In this document: in pieces, positions 53,106-56,292 of the stretch
How positions within the stretch are numbered: the first letter of the stretch is position 1
Layout: each line of letters begins with the position of its first letter
Origin: Mucilaginibacter gotjawali
Lineage (GTDB): Bacteria > Bacteroidota > Bacteroidia > Sphingobacteriales > Sphingobacteriaceae
Length of the DNA: 64,000 nucleotides
Reading direction: 5' to 3'
Assembly (NCBI RefSeq): GCF_002355435.1
Contig: NZ_AP017313.1
Coordinates: forward strand, 1,922,001 to 1,986,000
Made by a program: the position numbers and the translations under genes
Notes under the pieces: generated by a model
Told to the model about the DNA's origin: nothing
Databases searched by the model: none
What the model saw: the letters and a program-made list of their open reading frames with translations, nothing else

Positions 53106-54566
53106 ATGAAGAATTACATCCTTATCATTTGTTCATTTTTTATGGTGATACCCCATGCTGATGCACAGAAATTTTATGTCAGCTACAAGCCGTCCGTTTA
53201 TAAAGGCCCGTTTACAGGAAATGTGATCCTATATCTTTCCACTAAAAACGAAAATCCCAAAAACGAGACCGGCTGGCCCTGTTACCGGATGAAGGTGAAA
53301 AATATCATGCCCGATCAGCAGATCGTTTTTAACGATTCGTGTTTGTCATATCCCACGCTCCTTTCACGTATACCGCGTGGCAATTATTATGTGCAGGTTG
53401 TATGGGATTTGAATATTGGTGGGCGTATTATAGGATTGAGCACCGGCAATATGTACAATGTCAGCCGGAAGGTCACCTTGAACGATCCGAAAGACGGTTT
53501 TGCGTTGGTTTGCGACCAGGCAGTTAAAGCACCGCTTTTTGTTGATAGTCATTTTGTTAAGGAAATTAAAGTCAGTTCTAAACTGCTGACTCGCTTTAAT
53601 CATAAGCCGGAGTACATGCGGGCTGCGGTGATCTTGCCCAGGCAGTATTATACTGAAACTAAAAGACGTTTCCCGGTCTATTTTATGGTAGCCGGATTCG
53701 GTGGCGGCTATATGCATTATTCCAGGTCCGAGAGTAGTGATACGCTGGCCTCGGTCCCCCTGGACACCGTTGCCTGTATAAAGGTTTATCTAGATGGTGA
53801 TTGTTCGCTGGGGCATAGTACCTACGCCAACAGTGATAATAATGGCCTGGTAGGCGATGCGTTGGCTTACGAGTTTATCCCGCAACTGGATAAACAGTAC
53901 CGGACGAACGGCGCAAGGCTGATCCGTGGGCACAGCAGCGGCGGCTGGACGGTGGTATATTTGCTTTCGCATTATCCCAGGCTTTTTGTTGCCGGGAACG
54001 CCAGCGCGCCGGATCCGGTGGACTTTCGCCGGTTTTCATCCACCAACCTGTACCAGGATAAAAAACTGAACCGATATGTCGATGGCCTGACCATGGACAG
54101 GCCGTCGATACTCGATAGCGTGGTCTATGATACCCCGAATATTACGCATAGCATTGAAGGTGTTTTTTACCGGGGGCAGCAAAATATTTCTTTTGACGCC
54201 GTTTTTGGCCCCAAAGGCACCGGCGGGCTTCCGGAACGCATGTTTGACCCGGAAACGCTGCTCATCAACTCGGCTGTGGTTAACTATTGGAAACGGTACG
54301 ACCTCACGCAATATGTCATCGCGCACTGGCCGGACTTAAAAAAAGACTTGCAGGGGAAATTACGGATCTCCGTGGGCACAGAGGATATTGAGCAGTGCCC
54401 TGCCGTGCGGTTAATGGAAGAAGAAATGAAAAAGCTCGGGGCCGGTATCACGTTTGTCTATTACCCAGGTGACCATTTTAGTGTGGTAACAGGGGAATAT
54501 AAGAAAGCATGGGATGATTTTTTGCTCAAAAGGTATGTGGAATGGCTGAAGTTACATGAAAAGTAA
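53106..54566 (+). CDS. Secreted esterase-like alpha/beta hydrolase
   Basis: This 486-residue protein has a signal peptide (MKNYILIICSFFMVIPHADA). The C-terminal two thirds form an enterochelin-esterase/esterase-D-like hydrolase: RFPVYFMVAGFGGG, the nucleophile elbow LIRGHSSGGWTVVYLLSHYP, SAPDPVDFRRFSS, GTEDIEQCPAVRLMEEEM and YYPGDHFSVVTG with the likely catalytic His. An N-terminal beta domain of about 150 residues precedes it. It could act on siderophore or sugar esters. The upstream AraC gene is the likely regulator. Confidence 0.82.
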   Translation: MKNYILIICSFFMVIPHADAQKFYVSYKPSVYKGPFTGNVILYLSTKNENPKNETGWPCYRMKVKNIMPDQQIVFNDSCLSYPTLLSRIPRGNYYVQVVWDLNIGGRIIGLSTGNMYNVSRKVTLNDPKDGFALVCDQAVKAPLFVDSHFVKEIKVSSKLLTRFNHKPEYMRAAVILPRQYYTETKRRFPVYFMVAGFGGGYMHYSRSESSDTLASVPLDTVACIKVYLDGDCSLGHSTYANSDNNGLVGDALAYEFIPQLDKQYRTNGARLIRGHSSGGWTVVYLLSHYPRLFVAGNASAPDPVDFRRFSSTNLYQDKKLNRYVDGLTMDRPSILDSVVYDTPNITHSIEGVFYRGQQNISFDAVFGPKGTGGLPERMFDPETLLINSAVVNYWKRYDLTQYVIAHWPDLKKDLQGKLRISVGTEDIEQCPAVRLMEEEMKKLGAGITFVYYPGDHFSVVTGEYKKAWDDFLLKRYVEWLKLHEK

Positions 54567-54601
54567 AATGCGTTAAATTTTTGATTAGGCGTGCAGGTCG
54601 T

Positions 54602-54816
54602 CAGGGAAATCGCGTTTAAAAAAACCGGCATATTTAATTGAGGCTAAAGCCATTTTTATTGCTTCAATTTACCCGTTGGCTAAAGCCAACGGCAATGAAT
54701 GAAAAGCCATGCTTCCAAAATTCATTGCCGTTCCTTTTAAGGAACGGAAAAAGTAAACAAAAAGATAAAGGCTTTAGCCAAATTTTGAGCGACAAGTTTT
54801 AAACGCGATTTCCCTG
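54602..54816. mobile_element. MITE-like element with 20-bp terminal inverted repeats and 10-bp target duplication
   Basis: The 215-bp element starts CAGGGAAATCGCGTTTAAAA and ends with its exact reverse complement (54797-54816). TGCAGGTCGT occurs directly before (54592-54601) and directly after (54817-54826), as a target-site duplication would. Inside, GGCTAAAGCC words, CGGCAATGAA / TTCATTGCCG and TTGGCTAAAGCC / GGCTTTAGCCAA form nested hairpins. It encodes no protein, so it must be mobilised in trans. Confidence 0.8.
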
Positions 54817-54826
54817 TGCAGGTCGT

Positions 54827-55058
54827 TAAGCAGGATTTGTTGCATCAGTAATTTCATAAATTCGCAATTTCCCCTAAAGCAGTTGTGAGCTCGTTCGGTA
54901 TTTGTGCCATAACCGACACCTAACGCTCCTAAGGAAACCATGGGCGTTTTTTAGTTTAATAAAAGACCGGCCATCCCTATTTACTATTTTAATTATTTGC
55001 TTCCTTTGGAAAGACAAATTGTAATAAATTTACATCTTAATCTAAAAATATACCGATC
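54827..55058. terminator. Gap with a terminator-like hairpin before the DUF3347 gene
   Basis: CATAACCGACAC near 54900 repeats a fragment seen near 49260. AACGCTCC at about 54921 pairs loosely with GGGCGTT before a six-T run at about 54950, giving a plausible terminator. No further features are seen up to the next ATG. Confidence 0.45.
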
Positions 55059-55556
55059 ATGAAAACTATAAAAACACTTTCAATTGCGCTTGTTTTGGCG
55101 CTTTCCTTTTCATTCGCCCGGGCGCAAAATAACATTAATGGTATTACCAGCGCTTATTTTACGGTAAAGAACGCCCTGGTTGCGGGTAAGCCAAATGACG
55201 CAAGTAATGGCGCTAAAGGTCTTTTGGCTGCGTTGTCGGCCCCTGAAACCGGCTTGAAGCCTGACCAGGCAAAGTTGTTTAACAGTTATGCCGAAAAATT
55301 AAAATATGATAGCCGCCATATCCTCGAATCAACTGACGTGGCGCACCAGCGCGAGCATTTTGCCAGCTTATCAAAAAACCTGTATGAAGTGTTGAAAGGC
55401 CTTAAATTAAACACCTCGACCGTTTATATGGATTATTGCCCCATGAAAAAAGCTTATTGGCTGAGTGAAAGCGCCCCGATTAAAAATCCATATTACAGCG
55501 ACAAAGCGATGGCAACATGCGGAAAAACCACCGCCACTTTAGCTGCTGTTAAGTAG
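55059..55556 (+). CDS. DUF3347 domain-containing secreted protein
   Basis: This 165-residue protein has a signal peptide (to ARAQ). DUF3347 is a helical domain found in CusB-like and copper-linked periplasmic proteins. The diagnostic block YMDYCPMKKAYWLSESAPIK, then NPYYSDKAMATCGK, is complete with both Cys and the Met residues that would bind a metal. The length is typical of the free-standing type. It is followed by a perfect terminator and a diverged paralog. Confidence 0.9.
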   Translation: MKTIKTLSIALVLALSFSFARAQNNINGITSAYFTVKNALVAGKPNDASNGAKGLLAALSAPETGLKPDQAKLFNSYAEKLKYDSRHILESTDVAHQREHFASLSKNLYEVLKGLKLNTSTVYMDYCPMKKAYWLSESAPIKNPYYSDKAMATCGKTTATLAAVK

Positions 55557-55580
55557 TTAATTAAAAAATAATAATATTAA

Positions 55581-55615
55581 AAAATAGCCGGGCAATTTAT
55601 TTTGCCCGGCTATTT
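55581..55615 (+). terminator. Perfect 14-bp hairpin terminator after the first DUF3347 gene
   Basis: AAATAGCCGGGCAA pairs with TTGCCCGGCTATTT around a short loop and is followed by T residues. The two DUF3347 genes are therefore separate transcription units. Confidence 0.92.
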
Positions 55616-55776
55616 TTGTTTTAATAATATTTATCTTTAATTTTAAGCTTATAATAAGTATTTGATAATAAATTGATTGTGTTTGTTTTAATGCCCCCTT
55701 CATTAAAGCTAAATAATATAGATTTTTAAACCCCGGGGATAAACAGCCTGCCCTTATTAACGCGAAACCCATAGTT

Positions 55777-56292
55777 ATGAAAGCATTTAAAACTTGCCCC
55801 TTAATAATTGTATTTACATTAATAACCTGTTCTTTGTTCGCTCAGAAAGGGAACCCTGGTAATAATATTAACCAGATGATGAGCTTATATTTCGATATGA
55901 AAAATGCGCTTGTAAATAACGACGGGACAACGGTAAAAATAAAAGCGAATAAGTTATTTCACCTGTTAGCCACCGACCCGGGAAGGGGGCTGGATCGCGA
56001 TCAAATGCTTTTTCTGGCTGATCACCTGGAAGATTTGATGAATAACTGCCAGGAAATGTGTTATACCATTGATAGAAGTGAACAGCGGCCATATTTTGCC
56101 AGGCTTACAAAAACCCTGTACGACCTGGTAAAAGGGCTTAAAATTAATACCACTACCATTTATATGCAGTATAGTCCGGCAAATAATGCCTATTGGATGA
56201 GCGAAACCCTGGCTATTAAAAACCCTTATTATACCTATAAAGATTGGGCAACTGATGGTAAAACTACTGAGATCCTGGCTGCTAATAAATAG
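55777..56292 (+). CDS. DUF3347 paralog lacking the metal-ligand residues
   Basis: This 171-residue secreted protein (signal peptide ending SLFAQ) is a clear paralog of its neighbour: the same N-terminal ITSAYFTVKNALV-type helix (MMSLYFDMKNALV) and the same end block, here YMQYSPANNAYWMSETLAIK then NPYYTYKDWATDGK. The CPM of the neighbour has become SPA and the final TCG has become TDG, so both candidate copper Cys and the Met are gone, while the structural Tyr-Trp pattern remains. It may have a new ligand or only a scaffold role. Confidence 0.88.
   Translation: MKAFKTCPLIIVFTLITCSLFAQKGNPGNNINQMMSLYFDMKNALVNNDGTTVKIKANKLFHLLATDPGRGLDRDQMLFLADHLEDLMNNCQEMCYTIDRSEQRPYFARLTKTLYDLVKGLKINTTTIYMQYSPANNAYWMSETLAIKNPYYTYKDWATDGKTTEILAANK

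Follow-up and report, generated by a model that had tools for sequence, protein, structure and literature searches.

The 215-bp element at positions 54602-54816 of the window, this being the whole 64,000-nucleotide stretch of the Mucilaginibacter gotjawali genome that was analysed, is bounded by an exact 10-bp duplication and is considered, at a probability of roughly 0.8, to be a non-autonomous cut-and-paste transposon (MITE) with ISAs1-type ends and a REP-type doublet as its cargo. Judged from comparison of the ends, ISAs1 is the most likely parent family, and REP-type cargo within a MITE whose ends are those of a known IS family would represent a new combination of known kinds. No description of REP doublets inside ISAs1 MITEs was found in the open-licence literature searched, and a term search of a review of prokaryotic MITEs (PMC10969869) did not find ISAs1.

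Structure and genomic setting

A preliminary description of this DNA had reported a MITE with 20-bp exact ends and a 10-bp duplication, and this is borne out by ends that agree at 20/20 positions, a duplication that agrees at 10/10 and the existence of nine full-length copies (Table 1 and below). The terminal 20-mer occurs twice in the window at up to 3 mismatches, compared with 0.03 occurrences expected from shuffles, and no ORF of 80 aa or more in the ORF listing overlaps 54602-54816. Bacterial MITEs in general are likewise noncoding, with a length of 70-300 bp and inverted ends of 15-30 bp (as defined in PMC3733652). The present element differs from them in that its interior comes from another dispersed-repeat family and in that unrelated interiors share one set of ends.

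The interior has the order GGCTAAAGCC, spacer, hairpin CCGTTGGCTAAAGCCAACGG, CAATGAAT, spacer, ATTCATTG, hairpin CCGTTCCTTTTAAGGAACGG, spacer and GGCTTTAGCC. The palindrome GGCTAAAGCC is found at 54642, 54678 and 54770 (reverse strand), all three of its occurrences in the window being within the element, against 0.18 expected. When folded as a single strand, the element reaches -56.8 kcal/mol compared with -24 (sd 3.21) for 200 shuffles (z -10.2). The nested hairpins which the preliminary description noted in the interior are present, while the identity of this interior as a separate REP-type doublet was missing from it.

The element begins 35 bp after the stop of a putative esterase gene (54566), and with its strong hairpins it may now serve this gene as a downstream intergenic terminator or as an mRNA-stabilising structure. 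An Rfam scan (E-value mode) of 53500-56000 gave nine matches, every one under its gathering score; these include a match to MIR837 over the element, which was read as chance. On the other side of the element two DUF3347 genes lie side by side (55059-55556 and 55777-56292) and look like a tandem duplication.

Table 1. Features of the element, its neighbour genes and the loci of a second type of shell.
Feature	Position or locus	Strand	Evidence or remark
Target duplication, left copy, TGCAGGTCGT	54592..54601		Direct sequence and repeat finding; 10-bp spacing is the peak across the family
Target duplication, right copy, TGCAGGTCGT	54817..54826		10/10 identical to left copy
Left terminal inverted repeat, CAGGGAAATCGCGTTTAAAA, most likely ISAs1-type	54602..54621	+	Repeat finding, shuffles, comparison with L106 and L143 ends
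Right terminal inverted repeat, exact reverse complement of CAGGGAAATCGCGTTTAAAA, 20/20	54797..54816	-	Repeat finding, shuffles
Interior REP-type doublet (REPIN-like), palindrome family A	54642..54779		Repeat finding, BLAST, doublet downstream of Y1 gene
Small outer palindrome, GGCTAAAGCC	54642..54651	+	Repeat finding, shuffles
Hairpin CCGTTGGCTAAAGCCAACGG of first REP unit, then CAATGAAT	54673..54692	+	Direct sequence, repeat finding
Hairpin CCGTTCCTTTTAAGGAACGG of inverted second REP unit, ATTCATTG before it	54728..54747	-	Direct sequence, repeat finding
Small outer palindrome, GGCTTTAGCC	54770..54779	-	Repeat finding, shuffles
Upstream neighbour gene, 486 aa, putative esterase (PF00756); context, outside element	53106..54566	+	ORF listing, domain search
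Downstream neighbour gene, 165 aa, DUF3347; context, outside element	55059..55556	+	ORF listing, domain search
Second-shell loci (GGGTGCAAWTCAAATTGTCGC ends)	L318, L319, L323, L326, L330, L332, L335, L337, L066		

Copies in the genome and in the genus

The M. gotjawali genome (G000) is a single contig of 6.34 Mb. The 20-mer end, at up to 3 mismatches, has 42 occurrences in it (19 + 23), compared with 1 + 0 for the reversed control. BLAST with the whole element identified nine full-length copies including that of the window, with identities of 100 (the window copy), 99, 98, 94, 88, 87, 87, 83 and 78%, plus one half copy. The element belongs to a transposed family. The earlier view that its insertion was recent is supported by the perfect ends, the perfect duplication and the copies at 99% and 98% in the same genome. 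Within the genus, the first 19 bases of the end are present at up to 1 mismatch in 50/149 genomes.

For the pairing of ends, 24 stretches from M. gotjawali and 89 from other genomes were used, all selected for bearing such an end, the latter being one per genome and 60 hand-picked from G014, G017, G047, G061 and G066. This resulted in 96 paired elements (21 from M. gotjawali and 75 from other genomes), some of which are doubtful since one end was allowed as many as 6 mismatches, with a limit of 8 for the two ends together; 19 stretches had no pair, and the 78% class-A copy at 6256592 was left unpaired. Across spacings of 5 to 14 bp, the flank identity of the 96 elements peaks at 10 bp alone, with a mean of 0.62 in M. 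gotjawali (n=21) compared with 0.20-0.32 at 5-9 and 11-14 bp, and 0.70 in the other genomes (n=75) compared with 0.25-0.35. An exact 10-bp duplication flanks 5/21 and 20/75 of the elements respectively, and one matching at 8/10 positions or more flanks 10/21 and 42/75. The elements that fall under 8/10 (11/21 and 33/75) are decayed or mispaired.

It had been suggested that an empty site in a relative would prove the insertion. For the window copy no exact site was found among the 149 genomes, and the best three matches (G136, G120 and G017) keep one flank each. Nor was an exact empty site found for the copies at 5463033 and 515521. At the former, G136 and G127 have the neighbour genes in close proximity with no such element between them, their intergenic DNA being too diverged for an exact site, and by their coordinates the genes are also close in G016, G043, G111 and G130. 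In the orthologous stretch G120:C54:69588-71046 the neighbour genes are 1.5 kb apart, and another insertion is possible there. Around the copy at 515521, only the left flank is matched in G136 and in G066, the latter having a different MITE-like element in this place. When 13 M. gotjawali sites were joined over the element, ORF continuity gave no clear interrupted gene; two of the sites lie just before an ORF.

Parent family of the ends

The ends and the duplication length of the element resembled those of ISAs1, and that family was tested for this reason. PF13808 is present in 10/149 genomes of the genus, in 9 of them above its cut-off. One of these ten (contig CAIWRU010000149.1, locus L106) has an intact 383-aa transposase (NF033564, E 5.8e-116) in a 1,235-bp ISAs1 element, which terminates in CAGGAAAATCGCTTTTAACT and CAGGGAAATCGCTTTTAACT and is flanked by an exact 10-bp duplication (TGAAGTTACC). 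The window end agrees with these two ends at 17/20 and 16/20 positions. A relative at 53% identity, 1,238 bp in length, was identified in a Paludibacter MAG (L183); its ends are CAGGGAAAACGCTTTTAAGA and CAGGGAAAACGCTTTTAGAT, and its duplication, TGATTCATAA, is exact. The window end agrees with its left end at 17/20 positions, and a T-variant of the end found in M. gotjawali reaches 18/20 in the comparison with ISAs1 ends. The earlier suggestion that the ends and the long duplication might point to a transposase family is therefore supported, that family being most likely ISAs1.

Only these two complete elements, and a third, partial case at a contig edge (L112), were found to combine an ISAs1 transposase with AAATCGC-type ends. 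CAGGGC ends together with exact 10-bp duplications are present in four further ISAs1 elements of the genus (L101, L103, L108 and L109). The majority of the ISAs1 loci in the genus were rejected as the parent because their CAGGGC ends are of another sequence, and are regarded as relatives of the parent instead. As regards the other loci, L104 fits a 9-bp duplication, L105 has a pair of ends with no duplication, and no CAGG...CCTG pair was detected by the end scan in L102 and L107. The window element thus resembles the ISAs1-family insertion sequences (NCBIfam NF033564), which in this genus are about 1.16-1.28 kb in length, in its CAGGG ends and 10-bp target duplication, and differs from them in having no transposase gene and a palindromic, unrelated interior.

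The 96 paired elements provide 192 ends, 176 of which are nearer to the L106 ends, 4 nearer to those of an IS4-type element (L143) and 12 tied; for the M. gotjawali ends these numbers are 32, 2 and 8. Some elements match L106 further inward, over 23/23 bases in L083 and at 96% over 25 in L227. In the window element the alignment is limited to the terminal 18 bases, and because of this "ISAs1-ended MITE" is a safer name than ISAs1-derived. One end-paired stretch from another genome (L093, 1114-1489), whose first 58 bases are 78% identical to the left end of the L106 element, is apparently a true deletion remnant of an ISAs1 element.

The L143 element leads to another reading, judged improbable, in which the MITE has the ends of an IS4-family element and is mobilised by a transposase of that family. 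L143 (747-2746) lies in G061, a genome rich in these MITEs, and encodes a 444-aa IS4-family transposase (NF033592, 1.4e-46) between the ends CAGGGCAAACGCATTCAAAA and CACGGCAAACGCATTGAAAT, which are 2,000 bp apart and agree with each other at 17/20 positions, with 7/10 flanking bases agreeing at 10-bp spacing. The window end matches the L143 ends at 16/20 (the nearer) and 14/20 positions, so that on its own it leaves ISAs1 and IS4 nearly tied (17/20 vs 16/20, a difference of one). DDE transposases of such kinds also exist in M. gotjawali. PF01609 (DDE_Tnp_1), which was searched in ten genomes as a hunt for the parent that did not assume ISAs1, has 16 hits there, each of which was scanned together with roughly 1.5 to 2 kb of DNA per side. 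However, none of the 16 has a facing pair of MITE-type or L143-type ends better than 5 and 6 mismatches, and the few pairs at that level were taken as chance. Of three PF01609 loci in other genomes with one MITE end nearby, L150 and L152 were also rejected, their partner end being missing (best 13/20 and 12/20); the third is L143. The duplication of L143 is inexact whereas those of L106 and L183 are exact, and although L143 shares with the MITE family the CAGGGCAAACGC ends and a flank similarity of about 10 bp, as IS4-family insertion sequences (NCBIfam NF033592), its ends are less like those of the family overall. ISAs1 was therefore kept as the parent over L143, at lowered confidence, because of the 176/192 ends nearer to L106 and the several matches that continue past the 18th base. 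The likeness between the IS4-family ends of L143 and ISAs1 ends (CAGGGCAAACGC) means that two transposase families with similar ends occur in one genus.

A search of the genome with the end had been proposed as a way to reveal a full-length parent element. It recovered the 42 ends and the other copies; no full-length parent was found in the M. gotjawali genome, and the candidate parent is that of L106. PF13808 gave 0 hits in M. gotjawali, as did the L106 protein at E up to 1, and since no ISAs1 transposase is detectable in this genome, a helper in the same cell is not supported. Helper transposases can be lost, and a helper in the same genome is not a strict requirement for a MITE. The family is recent enough for perfect copies, yet is without a visible helper in its own genome. 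No relative of the L106 transposase was found in viral contigs; among plasmids, 862 records match it, all at under 60% identity. An ISAs1 transposase, either lost from the M. gotjawali genome since or supplied externally, would have bound the ends of the element, moved the entire 215 bp and created the 10-bp duplication.

The interior and its link to Y1 genes

The interior of the element is a separate REP-type repeat and not a remnant of ISAs1. It consists of two REP units in inverted orientation, which are dispersed in the M. gotjawali genome, and repeats of the same family (A) are found elsewhere in it without ISAs1-type ends in the 70 bases displayed per side. Directly downstream of one Y1 gene (G000:6066479-6066904) the doublet is present in the same order, with a single degenerate unit upstream of the gene. 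In the BLAST search with the window interior this locus matches over about 65 bases at 79% (54 bits, rank 20) and is the only one of the 11 Y1 loci of M. gotjawali among the matches listed, the higher-ranking listed stretches being those that had been selected for MITE or REP copies. Other interiors have other partners in such searches. For two class-B interiors the first-ranked Y1 locus is 1872464, for a class-D interior the top Y1 loci are 1091195 and 4608818, and a class-C interior (4149916) has only low-scoring Y1 matches.

These matches bear on whether the interior could be ordinary MITE filler, with the element as an ISAs1 copy that underwent internal deletion and then drifted into palindromes in its middle. 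MITEs are commonly held to be deletion derivatives (for example in PMC5896051), and L093 indicates that such derivatives exist. Against this stand the alignment with L106 over the terminal 18 bases only, the likeness of the interior to DNA adjoining a Y1 gene and its recurrence in the genome without these ends, as well as the unrelated palindrome families that are enclosed by the same ends; taken together, these make filler of this origin very improbable.

The opposite assignment, in which the ends too belong to the Y1 (HUH) system and a Y1 enzyme moves the whole unit, has in its favour that both the REP doublet and a Y1 gene exist in M. gotjawali while an ISAs1 transposase does not. It is nevertheless hardly credible, given the sharp 10-bp duplication of these elements and the complete ISAs1 elements that possess these ends together with duplications. 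To our knowledge, IS200/IS605-type Y1 enzymes generate no target duplication. In addition, the ends are absent within 1.5 kb of the 11 Y1 loci at up to 5 mismatches, bar one 5-mismatch hit in L175.

Four of the Y1 genes of M. gotjawali have in common the signature Y---Q--HH, which defines subclass 1.2 in PMC6006769. According to the same source, members of this subclass are low-copy, occur mostly in Cyanobacteria and Bacteroidetes and are generally without IS200-type terminal structures. With a model built from the four genes, relatives were detected in 102/149 genomes, with 1 to 7 matches per listed genome. Three longer Y1 genes of M. gotjawali (L175, L179 and L181; 173-181 aa) are flanked by other palindromes, for example CCACAAGCCGGGAGGCTTG and GTCCAAGCGGCACGCTTGGAC.

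The surroundings of 73 Y1 loci were examined, these being the 4 from M. gotjawali, 29 best matches and 40 hand-picked loci, and not a random sample. An intact ORF is present in 70/73 (L208, L315 and L316 were dropped), and clades were assigned by best BLAST match to three M. gotjawali proteins, with no tree. The family-A motif lies beside 12/12 clade-A Y1 genes (L172 of M. gotjawali included) compared with 1/58 others (Fisher 1.2e-12, kinship ignored), and the family-B motif beside 10/10 clade-B genes compared with 4/60 others (2.5e-9, kinship likewise ignored). For family D the link between motif and Y1 gene is partial, the strict motif being found beside 13/48 clade-D genes and absent beside the M. 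gotjawali gene L171. As a control, 396 stretches of 1,400 bases from M. gotjawali, biased to those with MITEs or REPs, contain the motifs of A in 29, B in 21 and D in 6 cases.

The interior is comparable to the REPINs and REPtrons associated with TnpAREP/RAYT in that it is a dispersed inverted REP-type doublet tied to one Y1 clade. It differs from them in that both strands of 54602-54816 lack GTAG and GTGG, and it is because this GT[AG]G guide is absent that the interior was filed as REP-type and not as a canonical REP. The Y1 genes also differ from canonical RAYTs, as they are of the short IS200-like kind with Y---Q--HH (subclass 1.2 in PMC6006769). The four M. gotjawali genes score 25.8-32.6 bits against NCBIfam REP_Tyr_transpos, below its cut-off of 80, and pass the IS200 model with 69.1-87 against a cut-off of 55.

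Shells and cargoes

The paired ISAs1-type ends enclose palindromes of family A in 8 elements from M. gotjawali and 11 from other genomes, of family B in 9 and 18, and of family D in 0 and 12. One of the remaining paired elements scored both A and D, and 4 from M. gotjawali and 33 from other genomes are unclassified. As the classes were set by short motifs, L052 of M. gotjawali is unclassified though it reads as B, and L094 was counted under D with no palindrome evident in it. Many unclassified elements, among them many from G061, are by eye D variants, others have other palindromes, and a few are without an evident palindrome. Two class-D elements of M. gotjawali (841424 and 1477527) have one clear end each.

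Family-A repeats also occur in other surroundings. From the matches covering mainly the interior, 28 such repeats were chosen, 3 of which (L059, L064 and L052) were wrongly delimited by the motif. A flanking inverted repeat scoring 9 or more is present in 14/28, compared with 22% of randomly re-paired flanks, and one scoring 11 or more in 11/28, compared with 12%. A second shell with the ends GGGTGCAAWTCAAATTGTCGC surrounds the family-A doublet at 9/24 loci scanned (Table 1). Its duplications are mostly of 8 bp, with four exact, two at 7/8 and one at 5/8, while two are better at 9 bp (8/9). A further two of the 28 repeats (L324 and L333) have decayed ISAs1-like ends, and L346 is, by eye, a second shell with yet another palindrome family. 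Shells and cargoes therefore combine freely: many cargoes share one set of ends, and one cargo is not confined to a single shell.

Several ISAs1-ended elements have a more elaborate structure. L266, L270, L271, L091, L245 and L248 appear by eye as "nested dolls" with inner inverted repeats that include CCCTCTTGAGAGGG and CCTCTTTCCGCC types. In many of the G061 elements L250-L265, AGCGAATGCCCC directly follows the end, so that a short palindrome (TTCGCTTTTTAAACGCGA) is formed where end and cargo meet. L250, L254 and L256 are elements of 350 to 538 bp with several GCCCTTTCAGGGC-type palindromes in a class-D-like cargo.

An arrangement related to that of the window element is described in PMC3733652, a section of which reports REP dimers within longer palindromes in Anabaena variabilis (GTAG-15) and others. 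As in the window element, a REP doublet lies in the middle of another inverted repeat. The outer palindromes are unassigned to a transposon in that section, whereas the outer ends of the window element are tied to an IS family and have a duplication. Empty outer palindromes, according to the same section, were not found in A. variabilis and H. neapolitanus and are abundant in T. roseum.

Possible assembly and implications

For the subfamily of the window, the REP doublet may have entered an ISAs1-ended shell once, possibly via a Y1 enzyme, and would afterwards have spread along with its shell. That shell and cargo were united not by a Y1-mediated insertion but through recombination, or slippage during replication, between dispersed palindromes is quite possible, with the odds leaning against it. 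The free combination is consistent with it, as ISAs1-type ends are found with A, B, D and other families, family A is found in the shell with the 8-bp duplication, and L346 adds a further pairing; on the other hand, the borders of the doublet are by eye fairly constant, often with TTTT before and AAA after, which favours a defined insertion.

In its widest form, Y1-mediated insertion would be part of a relay between two enzymes, in which HUH/Y1 proteins of subclass 1.2 place REP-type doublets of their own in the central loop of a MITE shell, and the shells are then spread by DDE transposases, namely that of ISAs1 and one or more others that make an 8-bp duplication. This relay is put forward tentatively and is rather unlikely as it stands. 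If it is true, each shell would be a reusable carrier, and several REP-type families in the genus would have gained copy number partly by riding in shells and not by their own transposition alone. Subclass 1.2, described as generally lacking IS200-type terminal structures, would in that case be provided with its missing DNA partners.

An otherwise anonymous repeat, present in a third of the genus genomes examined (50/149), has now been assigned a likely parent. The palindrome families are linked to specific Y1 clades, well supported for two of them by 12 and 10 loci and partly for the third, and this link opens the role of a little-understood HUH subclass to testing. That two classes of dispersed DNA are paired in this modular way is relevant to the spread of REP-type repeats despite the small number of Y1 genes.
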